Positions 10,198 through 43,284 of a stretch of 63,773 nucleotides of DNA are shown piece by piece. Both the position numbers and the translations under genes were made by a program. The notes under the pieces were generated by a model, which saw only the letters and a list, made by a program, of their open reading frames with translations, searched no databases and was not told the DNA's origin. Position 1 is the first letter of the stretch. Every line of letters starts with the position of its first letter. Source of the DNA: Betaproteobacteria bacterium RIFCSPLOWO2_12_FULL_68_20 (GTDB lineage: Bacteria > Pseudomonadota > Gammaproteobacteria > Burkholderiales > SG8-39); the NCBI GenBank assembly GCA_001770655.1, contig MERQ01000089.1, positions 1 to 63,773 on the forward strand, given 5' to 3'.

Positions 10198-10957
10198 GCG
10201 GAGCGCCCAGATAGGCTTCGATGACCTTCGGATCGCGCTGCACCTCGGCGGGCGGCCCTTCGGCGATGGTCTCGCCGTAGTCGAGCACCATCACCCGGTC
10301 GCAGACGTTCATCACCAGCCGCACGTCGTGCTCGATGAGGAGCACCGTGATGCCGTCGGCGCGGATGCGCTGGACGAGCTTGCCCAGCGCCAGACGCTCG
10401 GCCGGGTTCATCCCGGCCGCCGGTTCATCCAACGCGAGCAGCTTCGGGTCGGTGGCAAGCGCGCGCGCGATCTCCAGGCGCCGCTGGTCGCCATAGGGCA
10501 GGTTCCCTGCGGCTTCGTTCGCCCGCTCGCGAATGCCGACGTAATCGAGCAGCTCGGCGGCGCGCCGCTCGATCCCGCTCTCCTCGGCGAGCGTGCGCCG
10601 GTCGCGCAGCACCGCGCCGATCACCCCCGCCCGCGTGCGCACGTGGCGCCCGATCATCACGTTCTCGAGCGCCGAGAGGTTGGCGAACAGACGCACGTTC
10701 TGGAACGTTCGCGCGATGCCGATTGCGGCGACCCGGTCGGGCTTGAGCGCGGCGAGCGCTCGGGCGTCGAAACGGAACGTCCCCGCGTCCGCGGGGTAGA
10801 TTCCGGTGAGCACGTTGAACAGCGTCGTCTTGCCCGCGCCGTTCGGCCCGATGAGACCGTAGATCTCGCCCTTTCGGATCGAGAACGACACCCGGTCGAG
10901 CGCCTGCACCCCGCCGAAGCGCTTGGTGATCCCGTCCGCGTCGAGCAGCACGCTCAT
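10187..10957 (-). CDS. livG: Branched-chain amino-acid ABC transporter ATPase LivG
   Basis: A 256-residue ABC ATPase with Walker A GPNGAGKTTLFN (about residue 38) and Walker B LLALDEPAAGMNP. The signature position reads NLPYGDQRR, the altered C-loop typical of LivG. The long insert between Walker A and the C-loop (ARTFQNVRLF) is also LivG-specific. The ATG at 10957 overlaps the livM stop by four bases, and the 3' end overlaps livF. Confidence 0.95.
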   Translation of the reverse strand: MSVLLDADGITKRFGGVQALDRVSFSIRKGEIYGLIGPNGAGKTTLFNVLTGIYPADAGTFRFDARALAALKPDRVAAIGIARTFQNVRLFANLSALENVMIGRHVRTRAGVIGAVLRDRRTLAEESGIERRAAELLDYVGIRERANEAAGNLPYGDQRRLEIARALATDPKLLALDEPAAGMNPAERLALGKLVQRIRADGITVLLIEHDVRLVMNVCDRVMVLDYGETIAEGPPAEVQRDPKVIEAYLGAPRAA

Positions 10958-30032: not shown

Positions 30033-30073
30033 GTGACAATCGTAACAGGGCCGCGTGCTAGACTGCCCGCGCC

Positions 30074-31063
30074 GTGGCGACACTGCTCGACGTCAGGGAT
30101 CTCAAGACCACGTTCCTCACTTCCTCGGGAGTGGTGCGCGCAGTGGACGGCGTGTCGTGGGACATCGAGGAGGGCGAGACCGTCGCGCTGGTCGGCGAAT
30201 CGGGCTGCGGCAAGTCGGTATCCGCGCTCAGCGTGATGCGGCTCGTGGACGAGCCCGCCGGCCGCATCGAGTCGGGCGAGATCGTCTACAAGGGCCGCGA
30301 CCTCCTGAAGCTCAGCGAGGAGCAGATGCGCCACGTCCGCGGCCGCGAGATCGGGATGATCTTCCAGGAGCCGATGACCTCGCTCAACCCGGTGCTCTCG
30401 ATCGGGCGCCAGCTCACCGAGGGGCTGGAGATCCACATGGGGATGAAGCCCCCCGAGGCACGTTCGCGCGCGGTCGAGATGCTCGCCATGGTCGGCATTC
30501 CCGACCCCGAGCGCCGCCTCGGCCAGTACCCGCACCACTTCAGCGGCGGCATGCGCCAGCGCATGATGATCGCCATGGCGCTCGCGTGCAATCCGTCGCT
30601 GATCCTCGCCGACGAGCCGACCACCGCGCTCGACGTCACCATCCAGGCGCAGATCCTCGAGCTGATGCGCGACCTCGCGCGGCGCCTGGGCGTCGCGATG
30701 CTGATCATCACGCACAACCTGGGAGTGGTGGCGCGCTACGCGGACCGCGTGAACGTGATGTACGCCGGGCGCATCATCGAGCAGGCGAGCGCGACCGAGC
30801 TGTACGCGAACCCGCGCCACCCCTACACGCTGGGGCTGCTGCGCTCGGTGCCGCGCCTGGACGAGCCGCGCCGCGCGCGGCTCGATCCGATCGAGGGCCA
30901 GCCGCCCGACCTGACGAGGCTGCCCGAGGGCTGCGCGTTCGCGCCGCGCTGCGCCTACCGCGTCGAGCGCTGCGGCGAGGTGCCCTCGCTCGTCGCGCTC
31001 GGCGCGGGCCACCGCTCGGCATGCTGGGAAGCCGAGCGCCTGGTGAAGGAGCTGGCGGCATGA
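30074..31063 (+). CDS. dppD: Dipeptide/oligopeptide ABC transporter ATPase DppD-like
   Basis: A 329-residue ABC ATPase with Walker A GESGCGKS (about residue 38), the signature [10 protein letters not shown] and Walker [14 protein letters not shown]. The C-terminal oligopeptide extension carries cysteines in [14 protein letters not shown], which in DppD/F proteins bind an Fe-S cluster or zinc. The GTG start at 30074 diverges from the MFS gene by 41 bp. Its stop overlaps the next ATPase gene by ATGA. It heads a five-gene transporter operon. Confidence 0.92.
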
Positions 31064-32034
31064 GCCAGGCGCTGCTCGAAGTCCAGGATCTGGTCAAGCA
31101 TTTCCCGGTCGGCGGCGGATTGCTGAAAGGCGCCGCCGGCGTGGTCCGCGCGGTCGAAGGGGTCACTTTCTCCATTCAACGCGGCGAGACGCTCGGGCTG
31201 GTGGGCGAATCCGGTTGCGGCAAGACCACCACCGGCCGCTGCGTGCTGCAGCTCGAGCAGCCGACCAGCGGGCGCATCGTCTTCGAGGGAGCCGAGCTGA
31301 CCGGACTTTCCCAGGACAAGCTCAGGACGGTGCGGCGCCACATGCAGGTGATCTTCCAGGATCCGTATTCGTCGCTCAATCCGCGCATGACTGTGGGCGA
31401 CATCCTCGCCGAGCCGATCAAGGTCCACCGCATCGTTTCCGACCCGGCCAAGCGCCAGGCGCGGGTGCGCGAGCTGCTCGAGCAGGTCGGGCTCCACGCG
31501 CAGCACGCGCGGCGCTACCCGCACCAACTCTCTGGCGGGCAGCGGCAGCGCGTGGGCGTCGCGCGGGCGCTGGCGATGCAGCCCTCGCTCATCGTCTGCG
31601 ACGAGCCCGTCTCGGCGCTCGACGTGTCGATCCAGGCGCAGATCATCAACCTGCTCGAGGAGCTGCAGGCGCGCTTCGGGCTCACTTATCTGTTCATCGC
31701 CCACGATCTCTCGGTGGTGCGCCACATTTCCGACCGGGTGGCGGTGATGTACCTCGGCAGGATCGTCGAGCTGGCCGACCGCCAGTCGCTTTACGACGAG
31801 GCGCTCCATCCCTATACGCGCGCGCTGCTCTCCGCGGTGCCCATCCCCGACCCGAAGCTCGAGGCGCGCCGCGAGCGCACGGTGCTGCGAGGGGAGGTGC
31901 CGAGCCCGCTCAACCCCCCGTCGGGGTGCGTATTCCATCCACGCTGCCCGATCGCGGTGGATCGCTGCAGTGCGGAAATTCCTGCCCTGAGGGAGATCAA
32001 GCCCGGACACTGGGCCGCCTGCCATCTCGCTTGA
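31060..32034 (+). CDS. dppF: Dipeptide/oligopeptide ABC transporter ATPase DppF-like
   Basis: A 324-residue ABC ATPase, second of the pair. Walker A is [13 protein letters not shown], the Q-loop is [16 protein letters not shown], the signature is [16 protein letters not shown] and Walker B is [13 protein letters not shown]. The C-terminal [15 protein letters not shown] is the DppF/OppF cysteine cluster. The ATG at 31060 overlaps the dppD-like stop, so translation is coupled. Confidence 0.93.
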
Positions 32035-32094
32035 CTGGCGGCATTGACAGATCGCCGCAGTCCCACTTACAAGTAACGCTCCGAAAGCAGAAGA

Positions 32095-32109
32095 CCCCCG
32101 GTCCGGGGG
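32095..32109 (+). other. GC hairpin upstream of the dpp binding-protein gene
   Basis: CCCCCGGTCCGGGGG forms a tight stem (CCCCCG with CGGGGG) with a 3-base loop. There is no U-tract, so this is not a standard terminator; it may protect the 5' end of the downstream mRNA or mark a processing site in the 108-bp gap between the ATPase and binding-protein genes. The neighbouring bases AAGACCCCCGGT also occur at the engB-hemB hairpin. Confidence 0.45.
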
Positions 32110-32142
32110 CGGTTGGCGAATTCATCGAGGAGGAGGTGTGGC

Positions 32143-33732
32143 ATGAAACGACTCGCGCGTCTGCTGGCCATCGCGGCCGGCGCATTGCTCGCATTCACGG
32201 TGCAGGCGCAGGCTCCCCGCTCCGGCGGCGAGCTGGTGTTCCCGGTTCCCTCGGAGCCGCCTTCCTACGACGGGCACCGCGAGGAAACGTTCGGGCTGAT
32301 CCATCCGTTCGCGCCCTTCTATAACACCCTGCTGCGCGTGGACCCGTTCGACAAGGGCGGCACCAAGCCGGCACCGTCGCTCGCCGAAAGCTGGACGGTC
32401 TCGCAGGACGGCAAGACCTACACCTTCAAGCTGCGCCAGGGGGTCAAGTTCCACGACGGCTCCGAGATGACCTCGAAGGACGTCAAGGCCTCCTACGACA
32501 AGATCATCTTCCCGCCGGCGGGCGTAGGCTCGACCCGCAAGGGCCAGTACGCGGTGGTGGAGAAAGTCGAGGCGCCGGACCCCGCAACCGTGGTGTTTCG
32601 CCTGAAGCAGACTTCGGGCTCGTTCATCGCGTCGCTGCTCTCGCCCTACAACTTCATCTACAAGGCCGACATCCTCGCCAAGGACATGAATTGGTACGAG
32701 AAGAACATCATGGGCACGGGGCCCTTCACCTTCGTCGAGCACGTCAAGGGCTCGCACGTGCTGGGCAAGAAGAACCCGAACTACTGGGACAAGGGCAAGC
32801 CCTATCTCGACGGCTTCCGCGCGGTGTTCATGCGCGAGTCGGCGGCGCAGGTGGCGGCGATCCGCGGCGAGCGCGCGCAGATCCAGTTCCGCGGCTTCAC
32901 GCCCAAGGACCGCGACAACCTGAAGGCCGCGCTCGGCGACAAGATCACCGTGCAGGAGTCGCCCTGGGACTGCATCCTGCTGGTCACCATCAACCACGAC
33001 AAGAAACCCTTCGACGACAAGCGCGTGCGCAGGGCGCTCACGCTCGCGCTCGACCGCCACGAAGGCTCGAAGGCGCTCTCCCAGATCGCGATCGTCAAGG
33101 CCGTGGCCGGGGTGCAGGTGCCCGGCACGCCGTTTGCGACGCCGCCCGCGGAGCTGAACAAGCTCGCCGGCTACTGGACCGACGCGGAGAAGTCGCGCGC
33201 CGAAGCAAAGCGCCTGCTCAAGGAGGCGGGCGTTGCAGACGGCTTCTCGTTCACCTTCAAGAACCGCGGCATCCCGATGCCGTATGAGCCGCTCGGAGTG
33301 TGGATGATCGACCAGTGGCGCAGGGTCGGCCTGAACGTCAGGCAGGAGGTGATCGAGCCCGCGGGCTATTTCGGCGTCATCCGCAAGGGCGACTACGAAG
33401 TGGCGATGGACTTCCAATGCGGCTACATCGTCGAGCCGGACCTGGACATGTACAAGTTCCTGTCCGTCGACCGCAACCCGGCGAACTACGGCCGCTACAA
33501 GGACCCGGTTCTCGACGACCTGTACGACAAGCAGAGCCGCGCCACCAGCGTTGAGGAGCGCAAGCAGCTCATCCGCACCTTCGAGAAGCGCCTGCTCGAG
33601 GAGGAAGCCCACTACCTGATGACGCTGCAGTGGAACCGGATCGTTCCGCACTCGTCGAAAGTGCGCGGCTGGACGATCACGCCGAGCCACTACCTCAACA
33701 ACACGCTGGACACGGTCTGGCTCGCCCAGTAA
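32143..33732 (+). CDS. dppA: Peptide/solute ABC transporter substrate-binding protein
   Basis: A 529-residue family 5 periplasmic binding protein with a signal peptide (about 1-23, ending VQAQA). APSLAESWTVSQDGKTYTFKLRQ-type signature residues begin near 75, followed by GVKFHDGSEMTSKDVKASYD; KRVRRALTLALDR lies near 290. The ATG at 32143 follows a strong AGGAGGAGG ribosome site; an upstream in-frame ATG at 32113 would spoil the signal peptide. The ligand may be a peptide, nickel-type complex or other solute; the family name alone does not decide it. Confidence 0.9.
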   Translation: MKRLARLLAIAAGALLAFTVQAQAPRSGGELVFPVPSEPPSYDGHREETFGLIHPFAPFYNTLLRVDPFDKGGTKPAPSLAESWTVSQDGKTYTFKLRQGVKFHDGSEMTSKDVKASYDKIIFPPAGVGSTRKGQYAVVEKVEAPDPATVVFRLKQTSGSFIASLLSPYNFIYKADILAKDMNWYEKNIMGTGPFTFVEHVKGSHVLGKKNPNYWDKGKPYLDGFRAVFMRESAAQVAAIRGERAQIQFRGFTPKDRDNLKAALGDKITVQESPWDCILLVTINHDKKPFDDKRVRRALTLALDRHEGSKALSQIAIVKAVAGVQVPGTPFATPPAELNKLAGYWTDAEKSRAEAKRLLKEAGVADGFSFTFKNRGIPMPYEPLGVWMIDQWRRVGLNVRQEVIEPAGYFGVIRKGDYEVAMDFQCGYIVEPDLDMYKFLSVDRNPANYGRYKDPVLDDLYDKQSRATSVEERKQLIRTFEKRLLEEEAHYLMTLQWNRIVPHSSKVRGWTITPSHYLNNTLDTVWLAQ

Positions 33733-33745
33733 GGCCGGCGGCGCG

Positions 33746-33773
33746 CGGGGGCGCGTAGAGGAGCGCGCTCCCG
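33746..33773 (+). other. Intercistronic hairpin after the dpp binding-protein gene
   Basis: CGGGGGCGCG (33746-33755) pairs with CGCGCTCCCG (33764-33773) with one G-T wobble and an 8-base loop. It sits between the binding-protein stop and the first permease start and has no strong U-run. Hairpins of this kind after binding-protein genes stabilise upstream mRNA or limit read-through, raising the binding protein over the permeases. Confidence 0.5.
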
Positions 33774-33788
33774 GACTCCGTTTCTGCC

Positions 33789-34745
33789 ATGGCGTACTAC
33801 ATCCTCAAGCGGCTGCTGGCGATGATCCCGACCCTGCTCGGGGTCGCGGTGCTGATCTTCGTTCTGCTGCGCATCGTTCCGGGCGACGTGGTCGAGGCCC
33901 GCTACCTGGGCCAGGGAAGCCAGTTCCAGTCGCAGGAGCTGATGGACCTGGAGCGCAAGAAGCTCGGCCTCGACCAGCCGCTGTGGACGCAGTTCACCAC
34001 CTGGATGGCGGGGCTCGCGCGCCTGGATTTCGGCCTTTCGATGTGGACCGGCTCGCCGATCACCGAGGAGATCAAGCTGCGCTTCGCCTTATCGCTGCAG
34101 CTCGCCATCATGGCGAGCATCTTCGCGCAGCTGCTGGCCATTCCGCTGGGTATTCTGGCTGCCTTGAAGCAGGACACGTGGGTGGACTACGCGGTGCGCG
34201 TGTTCTCGATCGCGGGCCTTGCCATGCCCTCGTTCTGGCTCGGCATCCTGATGATCCTGACGATGCTCATCGTCTTCAAGTGGGTGCCGCCGATGGTGTT
34301 CACGCCGCTGTGGGTGAACCCGTGGGAGAACCTGGCGCAGCTCATCTGGCCGGCGCTCGCCGTCGGCTACCGCTATTCGGCCGTGGGCACGCGCATGATG
34401 CGCTCGGCGATGCTCGAGGTGCTGCGCGAGGACTACATCCGCACCGCGCGCGCCAAGGGCCTGTGGCTGAAGCTGATCCTCGCGCGCCACGCGCTGAAGA
34501 ACGCGATCCTGCCGGTGCTCACGGTCATGAGCCTGGAGTTCGCTTTCCTGCTCGGCGGCCTGGTGGTGACCGAGCAGGTGTTCAACCTGAACGGGCTCGG
34601 GATGCTGTTCGTCGAGGCGATCGCGCGCCGCGACTACACGCTCACGCAGGCGCTGGTGATGCTCGTCGCCACCTTTTTCCTGATCGTCAACTTCGTGGTC
34701 GATATCGCCTACGCCTGGCTCGACCCGCGCATCCGCTATCGCTAG
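33789..34745 (+). CDS. dppB: ABC transporter permease DppB-like
   Basis: A 318-residue permease with about six membrane helices. It starts MAYYILKRLLAMIPTLLGVA as DppB proteins do, and has the EAA-type coupling loop YIRTARAKGLWLKLILARHALKNAILP-like pattern near residue 216. The C-terminal LDPRIRYR is typical. It forms the membrane channel with the following DppC-like protein, 2 bp downstream. Confidence 0.93.
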   Translation: MAYYILKRLLAMIPTLLGVAVLIFVLLRIVPGDVVEARYLGQGSQFQSQELMDLERKKLGLDQPLWTQFTTWMAGLARLDFGLSMWTGSPITEEIKLRFALSLQLAIMASIFAQLLAIPLGILAALKQDTWVDYAVRVFSIAGLAMPSFWLGILMILTMLIVFKWVPPMVFTPLWVNPWENLAQLIWPALAVGYRYSAVGTRMMRSAMLEVLREDYIRTARAKGLWLKLILARHALKNAILPVLTVMSLEFAFLLGGLVVTEQVFNLNGLGMLFVEAIARRDYTLTQALVMLVATFFLIVNFVVDIAYAWLDPRIRYR

Positions 34746-34747
34746 CG

Positions 34748-35647
34748 ATGGCCGTCACGCCGCAAACCGTGGAAGAGCTGACCCGGGCCGAGCCGCGGCG
34801 CGCAGGCTGGATCGGCGCCGTGCTGGATTTCATCCGCCAGCGTCCGCTCGGGGCGATCGGCGGCGGCATCATCCTCGTGATGGTGGCAGTGGCCGCGACC
34901 GCCGGTCTGCTCGCGCCTTACAACCCGCTCGAAAACGACTACGCCGCGATGCTCTCGGCCCCCAACCGGGACCACTGGCTGGGCACCGACGCTCACGGCC
35001 GCGACGTGCTGACGCGCATCCTCTACGGCTCGCGCACCGCGCTCATGGTCGGCCTGGGCGCCTCGCTCATCGGCGCCGTGTTCGGCGCGCTGATCGGCGT
35101 CGGGAGCGCCTATTTCGGCGGCCGGGTGGACCTGGTCGTGCAGCGCATCATGGATGTGTTTTTCGCTTTTCCGGTGATCATCCTCGCGCTTGCGGTGGTG
35201 GCGATCCTCGGCACCGGCGTCGGCAACGTGATCCTCGCCATCGCCACGCCGATGGTGCCGCGCTGCGCGCGCGTGGTGCGCTCGAGCGCGCTCGCGGTGC
35301 GCGAAATGCCGTACGTGGACGCGGCGCGCGCCGCGGGCTTCGGCCACCGGCGCATCATCCTGCGCCACATGCTGCCCAACGTCATGGCGCCGCTGCTCAT
35401 CATGGCCACCGCGTTCCTCGGCGAGGCGATCCTGCTCGAGTCCTCGCTCTCCTTCCTCGGCCTGGGCGTGCAGGAGCCGACCGCGGCCTGGGGCCTGATG
35501 CTGCGCGGCGCGGCGGTGGAATTCGCCGAGAGCGCGCCGTGGATGGCGATCTTCCCGGGGCTCGCGATCAGCCTCGCGGTGTTCGGCTTCAACCTGCTCG
35601 GCGACTCGCTGCGCGACGCGCTCGATCCGCGGCTGCGCACGCAGTAG
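34748..35647 (+). CDS. dppC: ABC transporter permease DppC-like
   Basis: A 299-residue permease with the DppC N-terminal pattern (RQRPLGAIGGGIILVMV, then LGTDAHGRDVLTRILYGSR) and the coupling loop YVDAARAAGFGHRRIILRHM near residue 195. The C-terminus reads GDSLRDALDPRLR. The ATG at 34748 lies 2 bp after the dppB-like stop. It completes the transporter operon; the large regulator gene starts 20 bp further on in the same direction and may be read from the same transcript. Confidence 0.93.
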   Translation: MAVTPQTVEELTRAEPRRAGWIGAVLDFIRQRPLGAIGGGIILVMVAVAATAGLLAPYNPLENDYAAMLSAPNRDHWLGTDAHGRDVLTRILYGSRTALMVGLGASLIGAVFGALIGVGSAYFGGRVDLVVQRIMDVFFAFPVIILALAVVAILGTGVGNVILAIATPMVPRCARVVRSSALAVREMPYVDAARAAGFGHRRIILRHMLPNVMAPLLIMATAFLGEAILLESSLSFLGLGVQEPTAAWGLMLRGAAVEFAESAPWMAIFPGLAISLAVFGFNLLGDSLRDALDPRLRTQ

Positions 35648-35667: not shown

Positions 35668-38600
35668 GTGGAAATCTTCCTGCTCGGCCGATTCCAGATC
35701 CTCGTTGCAGGGACGAGGCTCGGCGACGAGGACGTCCCGGGGCGCAAGGCGGCGGCGCTGCTCAAGCTCCTCGCGCTCGCTCCCGATCACCAGCTCGCGC
35801 GCGACATGGCGGTGGAGCTGCTGTGGCCGGAGCTCGGCGCAGGCGGCACTGCGCAGCTGTACAAGGCGTTGCACCAGCTGCGCAAAGTGCTCGGCTCGTG
35901 CGCAAGCGGGTCAGAAGCCGGCAGATGGCTCGCGGCAACCAGGAATCTCATCAAGCTCGCGCCGCCCGACGGCTTGGCAACCGACATTGCAGCGTTCGAA
36001 CGAGCCGCGCGCGAGGCGCTCGGTTCCAGGCGGCTGGAAGCGCTCGAGGCGGCTGCGGGCCGCTACACGGGCGACCTGCTGCCGATGGATCTGCACGCGC
36101 CCTGGGCGGATGCGCCGCGCAACGAGCTGCGGCAGCTCTACATCGACGTGCTGCTCGCGCTGGCCGAGGGGTACCAGCGGCGCGGCGATCTGGCCGCCGC
36201 GGCCCAGACCTGGCGCACGGCGCTGGAAAAGGACGCGACGCTGGAGACCGCTCACCGCGGCCTGATGGAGGTCTTCGCGCGCCAGGGGCAGCGCGACCGG
36301 GCGCTCAAGCAGTACGGCGTCTGCCTCGACGCGCTAGCCGACGAGCTGGGGGTCGCGCCGTCGCAGGAAACGCGGGCGCTGTACGACCGGATCGAGCGAC
36401 AGGTATCGGGGACCGAGGGCGCCGCCGCACCCGCACCGCTGCAAGCGCCGGTGCAGATGCCGCCGCTGGTAAACCGCGTGTCCGAGTGCCAGGTGCTCGA
36501 CGAGTGCCTCGAGCGGCTCGCCGCCGGACGGGGCGGCGTCCTCCTCATCGAAGGGCCGGGCGGCATCGGCAAATCGCGCATGGTGCGCGAGCTCACCGCG
36601 CGGGCGAGGCAGCGCGGCTTTCACGCCCTTGTCGGCTCCGCCTACGAAATGGAAGCGGCGATCGCCTACGGCCCGTTCATCGACATCCTGCAGGCTGCGC
36701 TGCGCGCCAGCCCCGCGGGCGAGGAACTGATACCGGCCGAAATCGCCGGCGCCGTGATCGGCCGCGCGCCGGGCGCGCCGTCCGTGCCCAACTCGGACCC
36801 GCGCGCCGCGCAAACCTACTTGTTCGCCGCGATCGCGGAGTTCCTGCGCCGCCGCGCAGCCGCGGCGCCGCTCGTGGTGGTGCTGGAAAATCTCCACGCG
36901 GCCGACCAGGGCTCGCGCGAGCTGTTCCACTATCTCGCGCGGCGCACGCACGAGACGCCCGTTCTGCTCGCCGCCACGCGGCGCGACGAGGGTGCCGCTC
37001 CGGACAGGCTCCTGCGCGGCATCGCCGAAGCACTGCCGGCCAGCGTGCTTTCGCTCGCGCCCTTGAGCGAAGCCGACCACCACGAGCTGCTGCGGCAGCA
37101 ATGCGGCGACCCGTCGCTGGCGCGCGAGCGCAGCGAGCAGATCTTCCGGCTTTCCGAGGGCAACCCGCTGTACGCGCTGGAGCTGCACGGATCGCGCGGC
37201 CGGCATTCGACCGCGACGATCCCGCTCTCGCTGCGCACGCGCGTCCTGGAGCAGCTGGAGGCGCTTTCGCCGGGTGCGCGCAGGCTCCTGACCATCGCCG
37301 CCGTCGCCGGCGAGGACATCGCGTATCCGTTGCTGGAGGCGCTCTGGTCGGTCGCCGAAGAGCCGAAGGAGGGTGGTGGCCGCCTGCTCGATGTGCTCGA
37401 CGAGCTGATCGGCGCGCAATTGCTGCATGAGCACGGGGTGCACTACCGCTTTCGCCACGCCCTGCATCGCAGCTGCGTGTATGAGTCGGCTTCGGAAGCG
37501 AGGCGCCGGGCGCTTCACGCGCAGGTCGCGCGCAGCCTGCTCGAGCTGGGCGAGCGCGACGGCGAGCTGCCCGTCGAGCGCGTGGCCTTCCATTACCGGA
37601 TGGCGGGCGACGCAAGGCAGGCCGCGCACTTCCTGACCCTCGCCGGCCAGCGGGCGGCCTCGGTGTACGCGCACGACGATGCGCTGGCGAGCTACCGCGA
37701 CGCGCTGGCGATGCTCGAGCCCGCCCGCGACGCCATGGTCAAGCGCATCTGCGCCAACCTGCACACCTTGATCGGCGACACCAATCGCGCCGCCGGCTAC
37801 CTGGGCGAGAGCTTCGCGGCCTACGAGCGCGCGGCTGCGCTGCTCGAGGGTCTGCCGGTCAACGAGGCCGAGCTGACCGAGCTCAACCGCAAGATCGCGC
37901 TCGCCGCCATCTTCGCGGCCGACATGCAGAAGGCGGGCCGGCACCTGGCGCAGGCGTGGCGCCATGCGCCCGAGGATGCGCGCGTGCACGCGCGGCTGCA
38001 CGTGCTGCGCGCGCTCTATCTCTGGCATTTCAACCGCCTCGAGGAGGCGGCGCAGTACGCGCACCGCGCGCTCGAGCTCGCGCAATCGGCAGGCGCCGAG
38101 GTGGAGTCGGCCCAGGCCTGCGAGATCCTCGCCATGACCTATCTGCCGCTGGGACGCTGGCAGGAGGGGCTGCGCTACGAGAAGCAGCGCCTGCGGCACG
38201 GGCGCTGGTCACCGGAGCTGGTGGTGGCGACCGACGCCCACCTGTGCCTGTGGGAGTACCACGTGCGCGACGACCGCATGCTCGAGCAGGCGTCCGCGTT
38301 CATGCGCGAGGTGGCCGCAGAGGCAGATCGCCTCGGCGACAAGCGTTGCGTGGCCATCTGCCAATACGCGCTGGGGACGATTCACCTGTGGCAGGGAGAC
38401 GCTGCGAGCGCCCTGTCAGAACTGGACGAAAGCCTCGCCCTGCACGAGCGGGTCGGCTCGGCGGCGGGAATGGCCTACACGCTCGCGCGGCGCGCGGTCC
38501 TGCACACGCTCGCCGGCGCGATCGACCTGGGATGGCGCTCGGTCGAGGAGGGCGTCGAACAGGCCGAGCGCGCATCCATCCGCGACCACTGCCTGCAGCG

Positions 38601-39000
38601 CCTGTACGGCGTGGGGATCTGGAACCGCATACAGGCGAAGGACAGCGCGCGGGTCGCCGAGCTGGTCGCGAAGAGCGAGTCGCTTCTCGCCGCGGGCGCA
38701 TGCCCGTGGTGCGGGGTCGAGCTGTACCCCTGGCTCGCGCTTCATTACCTCGAGCAAGGCGATGTGGCGCGAGCCGCGCAGTGCGCCGAGCGCCTGGAGG
38801 GCCTCGCCGCCAAGACCGGCAATCCGGTCGGTGAAACCATTGCCGCGATCGTGCGCTGCGGCGCAGCACGCGCCCAGGGCGACCTGCCCCGCTATCGCGA
38901 TGCACGCCGGCAGGCGACGGGACTCATGCAGGGCGGGGCGCTGAAAGGATCCGCCTCGCCCATGACGTATCTTTTCGAGCGCATGGCCGCCGCGCCCTGA
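35668..39000 (+). CDS. AfsR/SARP-like regulator: winged helix, BTAD, ATPase and TPR-like domains
   Basis: An 1110-residue regulator. Residues about 1-95 are an OmpR-type winged helix (GRKAAALLKLLALAPDHQL, VELLWPE). Residues about 95-245 are the BTAD domain, ending ELGVAPSQETRALYDRI. A P-loop ATPase follows, with Walker A GPGGIGKS (about 296) and Walker B VVVLENLHAAD. From about 640 to the end come alanine-rich TPR-like helices. This is the layout of Streptomyces AfsR, unusual outside actinobacteria. No C-terminal helix-turn-helix is seen, so DNA binding is expected at the N-terminus. The start is a GTG at 35668. SARP operators are direct repeats with 11-bp spacing, and two such arrays lie immediately downstream. 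Confidence 0.88.
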   Translation: MEIFLLGRFQILVAGTRLGDEDVPGRKAAALLKLLALAPDHQLARDMAVELLWPELGAGGTAQLYKALHQLRKVLGSCASGSEAGRWLAATRNLIKLAPPDGLATDIAAFERAAREALGSRRLEALEAAAGRYTGDLLPMDLHAPWADAPRNELRQLYIDVLLALAEGYQRRGDLAAAAQTWRTALEKDATLETAHRGLMEVFARQGQRDRALKQYGVCLDALADELGVAPSQETRALYDRIERQVSGTEGAAAPAPLQAPVQMPPLVNRVSECQVLDECLERLAAGRGGVLLIEGPGGIGKSRMVRELTARARQRGFHALVGSAYEMEAAIAYGPFIDILQAALRASPAGEELIPAEIAGAVIGRAPGAPSVPNSDPRAAQTYLFAAIAEFLRRRAAAAPLVVVLENLHAADQGSRELFHYLARRTHETPVLLAATRRDEGAAPDRLLRGIAEALPASVLSLAPLSEADHHELLRQQCGDPSLARERSEQIFRLSEGNPLYALELHGSRGRHSTATIPLSLRTRVLEQLEALSPGARRLLTIAAVAGEDIAYPLLEALWSVAEEPKEGGGRLLDVLDELIGAQLLHEHGVHYRFRHALHRSCVYESASEARRRALHAQVARSLLELGERDGELPVERVAFHYRMAGDARQAAHFLTLAGQRAASVYAHDDALASYRDALAMLEPARDAMVKRICANLHTLIGDTNRAAGYLGESFAAYERAAALLEGLPVNEAELTELNRKIALAAIFAADMQKAGRHLAQAWRHAPEDARVHARLHVLRALYLWHFNRLEEAAQYAHRALELAQSAGAEVESAQACEILAMTYLPLGRWQEGLRYEKQRLRHGRWSPELVVATDAHLCLWEYHVRDDRMLEQASAFMREVAAEADRLGDKRCVAICQYALGTIHLWQGDAASALSELDESLALHERVGSAAGMAYTLARRAVLHTLAGAIDLGWRSVEEGVEQAERASIRDHCLQRLYGVGIWNRIQAKDSARVAELVAKSESLLAAGACPWCGVELYPWLALHYLEQGDVARAAQCAERLEGLAAKTGNPVGETIAAIVRCGAARAQGDLPRYRDARRQATGLMQGGALKGSASPMTYLFERMAAAP

Positions 39001-39075
39001 GCGGAAGATTTCCGGAAGAAGACCGGAAGGGCCGGTCGCTACCGTGGCACACCTCAACCGACAAGGAGGTGCATC
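39001..39075 (+). promoter_or_regulatory. Promoter/operator 1: three CGGAAG repeats at 11-bp spacing
   Basis: CGGAAG occurs at 39002-39007, 39013-39018 and 39024-39029, an exact 11-bp period that places all three on one face of the helix. A -10-like TACCGT starts at 39040, ten bases after the last repeat, so the repeats cover the -35 region as in SARP-activated promoters. An AAGGAGG ribosome site follows at 39063-39069. The 47-bp block is almost identical to the one at 40548-40594. It starts directly after the regulator's stop codon. Confidence 0.7.
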
Positions 39076-39927
39076 GTGACTACGGCGACCGAACTCAAGG
39101 CGGGGCTCGACACCGCGAATCCAAACAAAGCGCTGTGGGAAAAAGGAGACTTCACGCGCATTGCGGCGAGCATGAGAGAGAGCGGGGAGGCCCTGGTCCA
39201 GGGACTCGGAATCACCAAAGGACTCAAGGTCCTGGACCTCGGATGCGGCGATGGAACGACGGCATTGCCGGAGGCCAGACTCGGAGCCGACGTGCTCGGG
39301 GTCGATATCGCGAAGAACCTGGTCGACGCCGGGAACAAGCGGGCAAAGGAGCAAGGCCTCGCGCGCTGCAGGTTTCAGGAAGGCGATGCGTCCAACCTGC
39401 ACGAGTTGAAGGATCACGCTTTTGACCTCGTCGTGAGCATCTTTGGGGCCATGTTCGCGCCGAAGCCGTTCGATGTGGCCAAGGAGATGGTGCGCGTGAC
39501 CCGGCACGGTGGCCAGATCGTCATGGGGAACTGGATTCCCAATGATCCGACGTTGGTGGCACAGATTCTGAGAATCAGCTCCTCCTACTCGCCGCCGCCG
39601 CCGGAAGGGTTCATCAGCCCGATGACGTGGGGGATCGAGAAGAACGTGATCGAGCGATTTGGCGGCGCGGGGGTTCCAAAAGAGAAGATCTCCTTCGTCC
39701 GGGACACGTATACCTTCAACTTTCCAGGCGCACCCTCGGACTTCGTTGCTGCATTCAGAAAATATTACGGGCCGACCATGAATGCATTCGAAGCTGCAGA
39801 AAAGAACGGTCGAGCGGATGATCTGACGAAGGAGCTGGAAGCCCTGTTCGAGAGCCAGAACAAGAGTCCAAGCAAGGACGCCACGGCCATTCCCGCAACC
39901 TTCTTGCGCGCCACGGTTGCGGTTTGA
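39076..39927 (+). CDS. Class I SAM-dependent methyltransferase
   Basis: A 283-residue methyltransferase with motif I VLDLGCGDGTTALPEA (about residue 51), acidic strand-2 end GVDIAKN, and FDLVVSIFGAMFAPKP at motif IV. It belongs to the broad UbiE/class I group; the substrate is unknown. The GTG at 39076 follows an AAGGAGG site. The first 15 residues (TTATELKAGLDTAN) resemble those of the second methyltransferase at 40623 (STATAAKPGLDTAD), and their promoters match too, so both genes share a copied 5' cassette. GC is a little lower than in the neighbouring genes. Confidence 0.88.
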   Translation: MTTATELKAGLDTANPNKALWEKGDFTRIAASMRESGEALVQGLGITKGLKVLDLGCGDGTTALPEARLGADVLGVDIAKNLVDAGNKRAKEQGLARCRFQEGDASNLHELKDHAFDLVVSIFGAMFAPKPFDVAKEMVRVTRHGGQIVMGNWIPNDPTLVAQILRISSSYSPPPPEGFISPMTWGIEKNVIERFGGAGVPKEKISFVRDTYTFNFPGAPSDFVAAFRKYYGPTMNAFEAAEKNGRADDLTKELEALFESQNKSPSKDATAIPATFLRATVAV

Positions 39928-39928
39928 A

Positions 39929-40015
39929 AAGAACGCGGGTGTCGACCTGGTGCGCAAGCGCGCCGCGCAGTCGACCCAGGTCGCCCCGCTCGAGCCGCTG
40001 ACGCTCAGCTTCTGA
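39929..40015 (+). pseudogene. Possible C-terminal gene remnant between methyltransferase and OsmC genes
   Basis: The 99-bp gap contains a reading frame ending in TGA (40013-40015) that reads GVDLVRKRAAQSTQVAPLEP followed by LTLSF. It has the codon use of the chromosome but no start codon, and the reading differs in frame from the preceding gene. It looks like the tail of a lost gene, perhaps deleted when the region was rearranged. The parent family is not recognised, and chance coding-like sequence in GC-rich DNA is possible. Confidence 0.3.
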
Positions 40016-40026
40016 GGAGGCAGCCG

Positions 40027-40542
40027 ATGGAACAGGCAAGAATCCGCGAGTCGCTCGAACGCGCGAGCGACACCCTCGCGAAGAACCCAACCAAGGCGCG
40101 CAGCACAGCTGCGCCGCTCACGGCGAGTCTGATCGACGGGCTCAGGTTCGAAGTCAAAGGCCCCGGAGGAGAAACGGTGCGCACCGACGTGCCGCAGACG
40201 GTGGGCGGCGAGGGCAGCGCGCCCAATCCCGTTTGGCTGATGCGCGCCTCGCTCGCGGCGTGCACCGCGACGGTGATCGCCATGCGCGCCGCACGGCTCG
40301 GCGTGAGGCTGACGCTGCTGGAGGTGGACGCCGAAAGCGACATCGACAACCGCCGCCTACTGGGCCTCGACGATGCGGCGGCGTCGGTGCTCGCCTTGCG
40401 CCTGCGGGTAAGGATCGGCGCGCACGGGGCGAGCGACGATGCCCTGCGCGAGATCGCGGCCTGGGGCGACGCGCATTCGCCCGTTGCATGCACGATGCGC
40501 ATGCCGCCGGCGATCTCGACCGAGGTGGAGATCCTGCGCTAG
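40027..40542 (+). CDS. OsmC/Ohr family protein
   Basis: A 171-residue OsmC-fold protein. The catalytic-type region reads APNPVWLMRASLAACTATVIAMRAA (the helix with the peroxidatic Cys in OsmC/Ohr enzymes), and a second conserved Cys is near the C-terminus in SPVACTMRMPP. OsmC proteins reduce organic hydroperoxides with paired cysteines. It follows methyltransferase 1 by 99 bp with a GGAGG site before the ATG, and probably shares its transcript. Confidence 0.85.
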   Translation: MEQARIRESLERASDTLAKNPTKARSTAAPLTASLIDGLRFEVKGPGGETVRTDVPQTVGGEGSAPNPVWLMRASLAACTATVIAMRAARLGVRLTLLEVDAESDIDNRRLLGLDDAAASVLALRLRVRIGAHGASDDALREIAAWGDAHSPVACTMRMPPAISTEVEILR

Positions 40543-40547
40543 CTAGA

Positions 40548-40622
40548 GCGGAAGGTTTCCGGAAGACGATCGGAAGGGCCGGTCGCTATCGTGGTGCGCA
40601 CTTCAACCGAGGGAGGTGCACC
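40548..40622 (+). promoter_or_regulatory. Promoter/operator 2: second array of three CGGAAG repeats
   Basis: CGGAAG repeats lie at 40549-40554, 40560-40565 and 40571-40576, again exactly 11 bp apart, followed by TATCGT at 40587-40592 (four of six matches to a -10 box) and GGGAGG at 40610-40615. The first 47 bp differ from operator 1 at about four positions, none within a CGGAAG unit. Conservation of the hexamers and phase while the spacers drift points to protein binding, most simply by the AfsR-like regulator upstream. Confidence 0.7.
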
Positions 40623-41411
40623 ATGAGCACAGCGACGGCCGCCAAGCCGGGTCTGGACACCGCGGACCTGGAGCAGAAGGTCAAGGAAATGTACCGGGAC
40701 GTCGCCCGCGACCCGGGCGGCGAATTCCACTTCGAGATGGGGCGCGCGCTCGCCGAGCGCCTGGGCTATCCCCCCGCCGATCTCGACCGCATCCCGGCGG
40801 CCGCGATCGATTCGTTCGCGGGGGTCGGCTACTACTTCCACCTCGCGCAGCTGAAGGAAGGCGAGGCCGTGGTCGATCTGGGCAGCGGATCGGGAATGGA
40901 CAGTTTCGTTGCGGCGCTGCACGTCGGCGCGACCGGCAAGGTGCTCGGTGTCGACATGACCGAGGAGCAGCTCGAGAAATCCGAGCGCCTGCGCGCCGCG
41001 GCCGGTTTCGCCAGCGTGTCCTACCAGAAGGGCTACATCGAGCGGGTGCCGCGCGCCGACGGCACGTTCGACGCGGTCATCAGCAACGGCGTGATCAACC
41101 TCGCGCCCGACAAGCAGCAGGCATTCAACGAGGCGGCGCGCCTGCTGCGCCGCGGCGGGCGGCTCGCCATCGCCGACATCGTCACCGAAGCCCAGCTTCC
41201 CGACGGCGTCACGGAAAAGGCTGACTTGTGGGCCGCGTGCATCGGCGGCGCGATGCAGGTGGATCAGTACCTCGAAGCGATCAAGCGCGCGGGCCTGCGG
41301 CTCGAGACCATCCAGGACAACCCGCAGTACCGCTTCATCTCCGACAACGCGAAGTCTGCCGTCAGGAAGTGGGGCGTGAAGAGCGTCTCGCTCCTCGCCG
41401 TCAAGGCGTAG
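40623..41411 (+). CDS. ArsM-like SAM-dependent methyltransferase
   Basis: A 262-residue methyltransferase with motif I AVVDLGSGSGMDSFVAALHVG (about residue 82), GVDMTEEQLEKSERLR and VISNGVINLAPDK. This order and wording resemble arsenite methyltransferase ArsM and its relatives, as does ADLWAACIGGAMQVDQYLEA. The set of cysteines that bind As(III) in true ArsM is not complete (one Cys in the AACIGG segment is seen), so the substrate may be another metalloid or an organic compound. It has its own CGGAAG operator and likely leads the transcript with the globin and FAD-oxidase genes. Confidence 0.85.
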   Translation: MSTATAAKPGLDTADLEQKVKEMYRDVARDPGGEFHFEMGRALAERLGYPPADLDRIPAAAIDSFAGVGYYFHLAQLKEGEAVVDLGSGSGMDSFVAALHVGATGKVLGVDMTEEQLEKSERLRAAAGFASVSYQKGYIERVPRADGTFDAVISNGVINLAPDKQQAFNEAARLLRRGGRLAIADIVTEAQLPDGVTEKADLWAACIGGAMQVDQYLEAIKRAGLRLETIQDNPQYRFISDNAKSAVRKWGVKSVSLLAVKA

Positions 41412-41444
41412 CGCCTCGACATCGACTCCCTGGAGGAAGGAATC

Positions 41445-41891
41445 ATGAAATCGACACTCATCGCGGCCCTCGCGGCGGTTCTGCTCGGGGCCGGCGTCGC
41501 CCACGCCCAGCAGCCGAAATCGCTCTACGACCGGCTCGGCGGCGCTTATCCGATCTCGGTGGTGGTGGACAGCTTCATCGATCTGCTGCTCGTCAACGAT
41601 GCGCTCAACGCGAATCCCGCCATCAAGGCGGCGAGAGACCGGGTGCCGGCGGCGGGGCTGAAGTTCCACGTGACCGCGCTCGTCTGCCAGACCACCGGCG
41701 GCCCGTGCAAGTACACCGGCCGCGCCATGAAGCCGTCCCACGCCCACCTCAATATCGGCGAAAAAGAATGGCAGGCGATGCTCGCCGACTTCCGGCGCGT
41801 GCTGAACAACTACGGCGTTCCGGCGAAAGAGCAGCAGGAGCTGATCGCCATCGTGGAAAGCACCAAGAAGGACATCGTGGTCAGGAAGTGA
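41445..41891 (+). CDS. Exported group I truncated haemoglobin
   Basis: A 148-residue protein with a signal peptide (about 1-22, ending AHAQQ), then a 2-on-2 globin: SLYDRLGGAYPISVVVDSFI (helices A-B), LVCQTTGGPCKYTGRAMKPS (E-F region) and the proximal His in SHAHLNI (about residue 98-100). Group I globins oxidise NO to nitrate or bind O2. Export to the periplasm is uncommon for this family. The two cysteines in CQTTGGPC could form a disulfide there. It lies 33 bp after the ArsM-like gene. Confidence 0.88.
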   Translation: MKSTLIAALAAVLLGAGVAHAQQPKSLYDRLGGAYPISVVVDSFIDLLLVNDALNANPAIKAARDRVPAAGLKFHVTALVCQTTGGPCKYTGRAMKPSHAHLNIGEKEWQAMLADFRRVLNNYGVPAKEQQELIAIVESTKKDIVVRK

Positions 41892-41916
41892 GGCGAATCG
41901 GTTACCCTCTCGGATC

Positions 41917-43284
41917 ATGTCCGTGGAGCGCTTGACCGACACTGCGATTGCGCAGTTCACCAAGCGTATCCAGGGCACGGTCATCAGGCCCGGCGACGCT
42001 GACTTCGACCAGGCCCGCCGGGTCTGGAACGGCATGATCGACCGCAGGCCGGCGCTGATCGCCCGCTGTGCGAGCGTCGATGATGTCGAGGCGGCGGTGG
42101 AGTTCGCGCGCGTTGGCGAGCTGCTCGTCGCGGTGCGCGGCGGCGGCCACAGCGTGGCGGGACACGGCACCTGCGACGACGGACTGGTCATCGATCTCTC
42201 GCCGATGCGGGGCGTGCAAGCCGACCCGGAGGCGAGGCTGGCGAGGGTCGAAGGCGGCGCGATCTGGGGCAGCGTCGATCGCGCCACCCAGATACACGGA
42301 CTGGCCGTCACCGGCGGGATCGTGTCCGAGACTGGCGTCGCCGGATTGACCCTAGGCGGCGGCATCGGCTGGCTGATGCGCAAGCACGGCCTCACCGCCG
42401 ACAACCTGCGGGGCGCGAGCCTCGTGACCGCCGACGGGCAACTCCTGCAAGCGAGCGCCGAGGAGGACGCAGAGCTGCTCTGGGGTCTGCAGCGCGGCGG
42501 CGGCAACTTCGGCATCGTCACCGAGCTGCGCTTTCGCCTGCACCCCGTCGGGCCGATCGTGCTGGCCGGGTGGGTGCTGTATCCGCAGGAAAAGTCGACC
42601 GAGGTGCTCCGGTTTTACCGCGACTACGCGAGGGCAGCACCCGACGAGCTCACCACGATCGTCATTCTGCGGCGGCTGCCGCACCTCGCCAAGCTGCCGC
42701 CTTTTCTGCGCGGCATGCCGGTGATCGCGATCGCGGCCTGCTACTGCGGCGTCATCGAGGACGGCGAGCGCGCGGTGCAGCCGCTGCGCGCGTATGGGGC
42801 GCCGCTCGTGGACGGCATCGGCTTGAAGCCCTATGTCGACCATCAGACCATGTTCGACGCCGCGCAGCCTCCGGGGCGCCACAACTACTGGAAGACTTCG
42901 TATCTGCGCGAGCTGGGCGATGCGGCGATCGACGCGATCGTCGAGAGCACCCGGCGCATGACCTCGCCGCTGTCGCTGCTGGCGCTGTATCAGCTGGGCG
43001 GCGCGGCAAGGCTCGGGGATGCGGCCTTCTGTCTCAACATCGCGGCGACCTGGACCGATCCGGCCGAGAGCGACGGGCATATTTCCTGGGCGCGCGAGTC
43101 CTGGGCCGCGATCGAGCCGCATTCGAGCGCGGGCGCCTATGTGAATTTTCTGGGCGAAGAAGGCGAGGGGCAAACGCGCTCGGTTTATCGCCAGGGCTAC
43201 GAACGCCTGGTGGCCCTGAAGAACAAGTACGACCCCGACAACTTCTTTCGCTTGAACCAGAACATCACGCCGACCATCGCTTGA
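41917..43284 (+). CDS. FAD-linked oxidase with BBE domain
   Basis: A 455-residue flavoprotein of the berberine-bridge-enzyme/PCMH type. RGGGHSVAGHGTCDDG (about residues 74-89) carries the His used for covalent 8-alpha-histidyl FAD; GGGIGWLMRKHGLTADNL and GGGNFGIVTELRFRLHP complete the FAD domain. The C-terminal BBE motif reads NKYDPDNFFRLNQNI. Such enzymes oxidise alcohols, sugars or alkaloid-like amines and give H2O2. It lies 25 bp after the globin gene. No signal peptide is seen. Confidence 0.9.
   Translation: MSVERLTDTAIAQFTKRIQGTVIRPGDADFDQARRVWNGMIDRRPALIARCASVDDVEAAVEFARVGELLVAVRGGGHSVAGHGTCDDGLVIDLSPMRGVQADPEARLARVEGGAIWGSVDRATQIHGLAVTGGIVSETGVAGLTLGGGIGWLMRKHGLTADNLRGASLVTADGQLLQASAEEDAELLWGLQRGGGNFGIVTELRFRLHPVGPIVLAGWVLYPQEKSTEVLRFYRDYARAAPDELTTIVILRRLPHLAKLPPFLRGMPVIAIAACYCGVIEDGERAVQPLRAYGAPLVDGIGLKPYVDHQTMFDAAQPPGRHNYWKTSYLRELGDAAIDAIVESTRRMTSPLSLLALYQLGGAARLGDAAFCLNIAATWTDPAESDGHISWARESWAAIEPHSSAGAYVNFLGEEGEGQTRSVYRQGYERLVALKNKYDPDNFFRLNQNITPTIA

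Follow-up and report, generated by a model that had tools for sequence, protein, structure and literature searches.

A SARP-type regulator with conserved 11-bp repeat arrays outside Actinobacteria: a candidate self-contained circuit in a betaproteobacterial genome

Can a regulator of the SARP family, known chiefly for its control of antibiotic clusters in Streptomyces (PMC10972967), run a regulon of its own in a proteobacterium? This question is raised by a locus of Betaproteobacteria bacterium RIFCSPLOWO2_12_FULL_68_20 that lies on a stretch of 63,773 nucleotides of contig MERQ01000089.1 (assembly GCA_001770655.1), referred to here as the window. The locus begins with a gene for a regulator of 1110 residues (35668..39000, GTG start, forward strand, as for all features of the window given below), which is followed by two promoters that each carry the hexamer CGGAAG three times. 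A first, sequence-only reading of the window had proposed a candidate self-contained regulon, and this proposal is supported by our analysis, since the arrays are conserved at homologous loci and do not occur at random in the genome. We put the probability that the locus encodes a portable, self-contained activator-operator circuit built on a regulator of the SARP-LAL type at about 0.8.

Repeat arrays in the window and at homologous loci

Both arrays are exact, with three CGGAAG units at an 11-bp period, just as the sequence-only reading had described them. The first, W1 (39002..39029), follows the regulator stop, and the second, W2 (40549..40576), precedes the gene of an ArsM-like methyltransferase, here called MT2. 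A pattern search with CGGAAG-N5-CGGAAG-N5-CGGAAG at up to 3 mismatches returned W1 and W2 as the sole matches in the window, and 100 shuffles of the window gave a mean of 0.18 matches, with 2 matches reached in one of them. At up to 2 mismatches the whole genome (3,482,551 bases in 109 contigs) contained W1 and W2 on the forward strand and no match on the reverse strand, with 1 match for a reversed-pattern control, so that random occurrence across the 3.48-Mb genome is excluded. Ten nucleotides past the last repeat of each array we placed, by comparison of seven arrays, an inferred -10 box, which reads TACCGT at promoter 1 (39040..39045) and TATCGT at promoter 2 (40587..40592). The two promoters look like duplicates of each other.

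Relatives of the regulator are few. The genome samples comprised 98 members of the family (regulator matches at E up to 1e-60), 399 of the order (E up to 1e-80) and 369 of the class. The regulator was present in 5 of the 98 family genomes, namely the own genome, G441 and G440 (both 75% identical), G390 (63%) and G433 (35%), and in 2 of the 399 order genomes, the own one and G486 (69%). A wider scan of genome contigs, limited to two peptide patterns, returned six relatives and added a Balneolales metagenome-assembled genome (MAG; G849, Balneolota, 43%), an Anaerolineae MAG (Chloroflexota, 42%; its order contained that one genome only) and an unclassified bacterium (65%, cut). The C-terminal part of the Balneolales regulator (50%, residues 860-1107) is encoded on another contig of that assembly, and we take the two pieces to be one gene. 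The same C-terminal part recurs at 51% in G870 of the same family, in which 2 of 20 genomes have regulator parts. A decayed relative (48%) is found on plasmid pMESIL01 of Allomeiothermus silvanus (Deinococcota). The array was thus seen in two phyla and regulator relatives in four.

The array is present in each of the six genomes in which the DNA past the regulator is readable (own, G441, G440, G486, G849 and G870), which speaks against its absence from homologous loci; G390, G850 and G851 were left out of this count, as their contigs end inside the regulator gene. In G441 and G440 (loci L016 and L017) the array stands right after the regulator stop, in the place of W1, with 1 and 0 mismatches. 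G486 (locus L024) has two arrays, one of two units after the regulator and an exact one of three units before MT2, which is the counterpart of W2 (10927-10954 of that locus). Both Balneolales genomes read CGGAAG-AAAAC-CGGAAG-ATCAC-AGGAAG between regulator and MT2; this intergenic stretch of 220 bases contains the array at 1 mismatch, and none of 20,000 first-order Markov resamples of it fell below 3. A chance origin of the arrays is rejected by the window shuffles, the genome-wide scan and this resampling.

What is conserved is position and spacing. The distance from the last hexamer to TAYNNT (TACCGT, TATCGT or TATTAT) is exactly 10 nt in each of the seven arrays with three units, and the two-unit array of G486, shorter by exactly one 11-bp unit, keeps this distance. 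These are 11-bp direct repeats next to an inferred -10 box, the arrangement of SARP sites, for which a distance from repeat to -10 of 8 bp has been published, dependent on the chosen repeat end (PMC10936776). Over the seven arrays 16 of 18 hexamer columns are invariant, against 5 of 20 in the spacers and the 10-nt gap (p = 9e-5, indicative only, as the rows are related).

Furthermore, the array is associated with the regulator rather than with MT2. Relatives of MT2 (E up to 1e-60) occur in 9 of the 98 family genomes, and in four of these (G409, G421, G413 and G412) the copy is 68-72% identical and the genome has no regulator match at E up to 1e-60. No array was found at up to 4 mismatches in any of these four MT2 loci when both strands of the stretches covered were searched. 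Upstream arrays are therefore found at 6 of 6 MT2 genes with a regulator and at 0 of 4 without (p = 0.005), an association that persists after merging close pairs (4 versus 4, p = 0.03). With completeness ratings of 87% for G421 and 86% for G413, a regulator could have been missed in these two.

The sequence-only reading had called for a wider search for the triple beside this regulator family. In the order sample arrays with RTTTC spacers occur in exactly 2 of 399 genomes, the same two that carry the regulator; the bare pattern is not enriched, as given below. The exact triple is present in 4 of 399 order genomes, two of which (G597 and G738) have tandem repeats with other spacers, and in 3 of 369 class genomes, the own one plus G354 and G137, where it again belongs to 11-bp tandem repeats with other spacers. 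At up to 1 mismatch it occurs in 5 of 98 family genomes, including G410 and G422 (other spacers, no regulator), and the reversed control in 2 of 98. The evidence for the array lies in its conserved position and spacing and not in the bare pattern. A search of six genomes for a wider regulon with GGAAGRTTTCCGGAAG at 0 mismatches, which did not extend to two-unit arrays with other spacers, returned only the known loci of G000 (2), G440 (1), G441 (1) and G486 (2), and the single one-mismatch match (G441 C85) has no third unit.

Class of the regulator and its likely mode of action

The regulator consists of a SARP domain (winged helix plus BTAD), an AAA_16 ATPase and a C-terminal TPR-like region with conserved cysteines. 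A Pfam scan (E up to 0.001) gave 4 matches in total, among them BTAD at residues 106-242 (8.2e-15) and AAA_16 at residues 267-434 (1.1e-22). At this threshold there was no separate match to a winged-helix family, none to the LuxR helix-turn-helix and none to NB-ARC, with AAA_16 and AAA_22 found instead. A profile of the N-terminal 260 residues with 7 relatives matched the solved structures of EmbR (2fez, 3-255) and AfsR (8hvr, 27-245) and so spans the whole SARP domain. Over residues 264-699 the protein resembles the kinase/cyclase model TIGR03903 (95 bits, 2.6e-27, far under the model cut-off), and the TPR-type matches (RPN7 at 741-802 and PilW/Tgl-type) are all weak. The regulator had been described as an AfsR-like SARP/BTAD-ATPase-TPR protein of 1110 residues; its size, BTAD and ATPase stand, the TPR part is matched weakly, and the likeness to AfsR is the less fitting one. 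NB-ARC is a feature of the large SARPs (PMC10972967), and the central NB-ARC of the AfsR type is lacking here at the threshold used. Because of the BTAD and AAA_16 matches and the below-cut-off kinase/cyclase similarity, the protein fits a SARP-LAL-like class (PimR, SanG) better than the AfsR-like large SARPs; its cyclase/LAL-related ATPase half and the lack of a C-terminal LuxR helix-turn-helix agree with PimR, against which it was set by description only.

Compared with known members, the regulator shares with PimR, SanG and PolR of Streptomyces a SARP domain joined to an ATPase half related to guanylate cyclases and LAL proteins (PMC5930380), but it differs in its host phyla, in targets that are not an antibiotic cluster and perhaps in six invariant sensor cysteines. 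With AfsR of Streptomyces coelicolor it has the SARP-ATPase layout, possibly with the TPR part, and the profile match in common, and it differs by AAA_16 without an NB-ARC match, by another repeat sequence and by targets seen only locally. The likeness to EmbR of Mycobacterium tuberculosis is confined to the SARP domain. EmbR carries an FHA domain in place of the ATPase and TPR parts. EmbR and AfsR were among the first six Foldseek matches of the structure model, with EmbR first (TM-score 0.41-0.47, root-mean-square deviation 12-13). In a VIA-align search the proteins listed for model residues about 97-260 were all of TPR or other helical-repeat type. The own genome has 5 BTAD places in all, the regulator being one, and near the 4 others (stretches L006, L008, L009, L010, L020, L021 and L022) no array was found at up to 4 mismatches.

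Two segments bear on how the protein might work. The segment AQLYKA-H--R is unchanged in all 8 aligned N-termini of the regulator family, Balneolales and Anaerolineae included, and by its position should fall in the recognition helix. Residues 403-414 (36874-36909) read VVVLENLHAADQ, with EN at a position where LAL-type proteins usually have DD. As EN replaces the usual DD and is also kept in the three closest orthologs, ATP hydrolysis by the regulator may be impaired.

In the C-terminal part six of eight cysteines (860, 894, 898, 975, 1012 and 1015) are identical in all seven aligned rows, which span Pseudomonadota, Balneolota and one Deinococcota remnant, against 67 of 250 invariant columns overall (P = 0.005). 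Because these six are invariant over three phyla, the signal would be a thiol-reactive species or a soft metalloid, a proposal that we consider evenly balanced between right and wrong.

The arrays can be compared with operators worked out in Streptomyces. PimR uses three CGGCAAG heptamers with 4-nt spacers, binding one monomer per heptamer and needing at least two, and the operators of SanG and PolR have two CGGCAAG heptamers (PMC5930380), in line with the two or three heptamers given for SARP sites in a review (PMC10972967). W1 and W2 share with the PimR operator the three units, the 11-bp period and a unit close in sequence; the main PimR operator does not overlap the -35 box (PMC5930380), and the arrays here abut the inferred -10. 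SARP sites with 11-bp spacing lie near the -10, and AfsR binds as a side-by-side dimer to two 11-bp repeats beside a suboptimal -10, with a poor -35, and contacts the polymerase (PMC10936776), an arrangement that the arrays here resemble. Since the arrays share period and number of units with the PimR operator, have a closely similar unit and a weak -10-like box, and AQLYKA-H--R is invariant, we infer that the regulator binds the arrays and activates from them.

The circuit would then operate as follows. The winged-helix/BTAD domain would bind one CGGAAG per protomer, so that protomers sit side by side on one face of the DNA, one every 11 bp. The six invariant cysteines of the TPR-like sensor would probably capture the thiol-reactive species or soft metalloid. 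Signal-gated assembly is known from STAND/LAL proteins, and by analogy the ATPase and TPR-like parts suggest that the signal, with ATP as the possible driver, triggers assembly on the three repeats. The assembled protein would bring RNA polymerase to a promoter whose -10 is weak and which lacks an evident -35, thereby switching on the ArsM-like methyltransferase and a changeable set of thiol and redox genes. Copying of the operator-promoter-leader module would allow new operons to join the regulon.

The same arrays could be read in other ways. The spacer before a CGGAAG is RTTTC in all six proteobacterial arrays (W1, W2, G441, G440, and G486a and G486b of G486) and creates an inverted repeat, so that the operator might be a dyad, CGGAA-N3-TTCCG (in G486a TGGAA-N3-TTCCG), for a dimeric regulator other than the one encoded here, with the direct repeats incidental; both Balneolales arrays, however, have an AAAAC spacer and no dyad and still keep three direct repeats, the third AGGAAG, and the 10-nt distance, and the array tracks the regulator and not the target gene. 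The dyad operator, missing from the Balneolales arrays, was rejected, and we regard this explanation as very improbable. Still fainter is the chance that the arrays bind no protein and persist through shared ancestry and promoter duplication: W1/W2 and G486a/G486b do resemble within-genome duplicates and independent loci are few, but the arrays are retained across phyla whose promoters have diverged in other columns, the hexamers being the most conserved part, and the unit lost in G486 was lost as exactly 11 bp. The regulator might also repress by covering the region beside the -10, as a mere 10 nt separate the array from the -10-like box and a bound protein could block polymerase; AfsR, however, activates from a comparable position (PMC10936776), and TACCGT and TATCGT would be weak boxes of the kind found in activator-dependent promoters, which leaves repression quite unlikely.

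A further alternative concerns the output, in that the circuit could serve arsenic or antimony methylation and detoxification. MT2 is nearest to ArsM models and structures, with which it shares the methyltransferase core and the cysteine after LWxx, and the sensor is rich in cysteines. Against the arsenite methyltransferase model, however, MT2 scores 215.7 bits, under the curated cut-off of 263, and it has SNG where three aligned ArsM structures have SNC. The cysteine of the SNC motif has a role in arsenic binding in ArsM. The remaining genes of the cluster, the part of the genome considered for this question, encode thiol, sulfur, haem and flavin proteins. Because of the glycine in this motif and the score below the cut-off, arsenic methylation proper is less likely, and we hold an arsenic regulon to be unlikely. 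The earlier label of ArsM-like methyltransferase is thus apt as a statement of likeness and does not imply arsenic methylation.

The reading that we retain is the self-contained activator circuit, and several observations weigh against it. Of the 399 order genomes 11 contain the triple hexamer at one mismatch, no more than contain the reversed control (about 12, counted by eye), and the array-bearing loci amount to four lineages only, as G441/G440 and G849/G870 are close pairs. The whole assembly of G390, rated 93% complete, lacks both an array at up to 1 mismatch and an MT2 match at 1e-60 or better, which may come from a missing contig, yet counts against the association as a strict rule. No array at up to 4 mismatches was found in the stretches covered for the 35% relative of G433 or for the decayed one of pMESIL01. 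Upstream of MT2 in G409 only 88 bases are readable, and known arrays begin 74-101 bases upstream. In G849 the regulator is pieced together from two contigs, and in G870 its C-terminal part is all that is visible. In the structure model the DNA-binding part is poor, with most of residues 1-105 under 50 in the predicted local distance difference test (pLDDT), and the sensing role of the cysteines is a proposal made from their conservation.

Genes of the cluster and history of the locus

Behind promoter 1 lies MT1 (39076..39927, GTG start), a class I S-adenosylmethionine methyltransferase (Methyltransf_11) with a distinct composition: its GC content is 59.6%, against 71.5% in the regulator, 70.0% in the OsmC gene, 68.1% in MT2, 68.2% in the oxidase and 64.7% in the globin. 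Its N-terminal 15 codons or so resemble the start of MT2 in the 5' alignment, and with MT1 as query only the MT2 gene was matched in L016, L017 and L024 (27-28%). Beyond its first codons MT1 is apparently foreign. Next comes an internally deleted remnant of a DsrE-family gene (39923..40016), which had been overlooked between MT1 and OsmC; it matches residues 41-66 of the L016 DsrE at 88% in tblastn and ends in ...PLTLSF*, as does the L016 C-terminus, the gene being intact in L016 and L017. The OsmC-family protein (40027..40542, 171 residues, Pfam OsmC 4e-13) is 91% and 88% identical in L016 and L017, with no match in L024.

Promoter 2 precedes MT2 itself (40623..41411, Methyltransf_31 4.9e-31, aligned to solved ArsM), a bacterial truncated globin (41445..41891, Bac_globin 2.1e-11), which is 79% identical in L024 and has no match in L016 or L017, and an FAD-binding_4/BBE oxidoreductase of 455 residues (41917..43284), 76-80% identical in L016, L017 and L024. 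An N-terminal signal-like sequence, judged by eye, suggests that the globin is exported. Pfam confirmed the identities first given to the OsmC protein, the methyltransferases, the globin and the flavin oxidase. Four of the variable partners found here and in the relatives, OsmC, DsrE, a ResA-like redoxin and DsbD_N, belong to families of thiol or disulfide proteins. The other two MT2 relatives of the family sample, in G383 and G417 (L092 and L093), are 42-46% identical and have one in-frame TGA each, and these ArsM relatives are possibly selenoproteins. OsmC-like and DsrE-like proteins are among the selenoprotein families listed in PMC1088965.

The gene set proposed at the outset, a methyltransferase with OsmC and an ArsM-like methyltransferase with globin and oxidase, is present in the window but is not a fixed one. 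Regulator and array are followed by MT2, DsrE, OsmC and oxidase in G441 and G440, by a ResA-like redoxin, a DsbD_N protein, a further array, MT2, globin and oxidase in G486, and by MT2 and cupin in the Balneolales MAGs. The regulon is therefore modular, with an ArsM-like methyltransferase after an array in 6 of 6 genomes and DsrE, OsmC, redoxin, DsbD-N, globin, oxidase and cupin variable. The simplest account would be that a foreign methyltransferase took over the MT2 body and part of DsrE behind promoter 1, and that a second promoter with an MT2 copy now stands upstream of globin and oxidase. Leader sequence is common to W1 and W2 and, in the other genome, to G486a and G486b, so that promoters appear to have been copied on more than one occasion.

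Directly upstream of the regulator, at about 30046-35647, lies an ABC transporter operon (Dpp-type by eye), which is kept in L016 at 78-90%, where the regulator cluster is inverted relative to it. Between operon and cluster in that locus (L016:9362-10855) is an open reading frame that by eye resembles phosphonoacetate hydrolase. Around the G486 cluster none of the window's flanking open reading frames of 200 residues or more was found, from which we conclude that the cluster may move as a unit.

On pMESIL01 the decayed regulator relative sits downstream of an ArsR gene. The plasmid also has another BTAD regulator (28% over about 300 residues), followed by an operon for an antibiotic biosynthesis monooxygenase, GYD, SRPBCC, cytochrome c and VOC proteins (L083, 1045-10058). 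Downstream of this regulator an intergenic GCGACG-N5-GCGACG-N10-CATACT was found by eye, and its geometry, which resembles that of the CGGAAG array, is suggestive.

A SARP regulon outside Actinobacteria

The regulator kind and the operator kind are already known from Streptomyces. In the open-access literature, whose coverage leaves out most subscription papers, no paper was found that deals with this gene set or with a SARP operator from outside Actinobacteria, in agreement with the initial view that no system with this set has been described. As far as that literature tells, the new elements are a conserved SARP operator outside Actinobacteria, the gene set and the cysteine-rich sensor. At even odds, in our judgement, the locus represents a SARP-type activator turned mobile, cysteine-sensing stress circuit outside the actinobacteria, which travels with its own operator and recruits operons by copying a cassette in front of incoming genes.

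If true, a conserved operator would for the first time be defined for a SARP regulon outside Actinobacteria, one in which a SARP-LAL-like protein keeps the same operator logic in proteobacteria and Balneolota, beside methyltransferase, thiol and sulfur genes. With one regulator and two promoters it would offer a small system for the study of operator reading, ATP-dependent assembly and the signal of large SARPs, and the locus suggests how a regulon may grow, by the copying of a promoter module in front of an apparently foreign gene.

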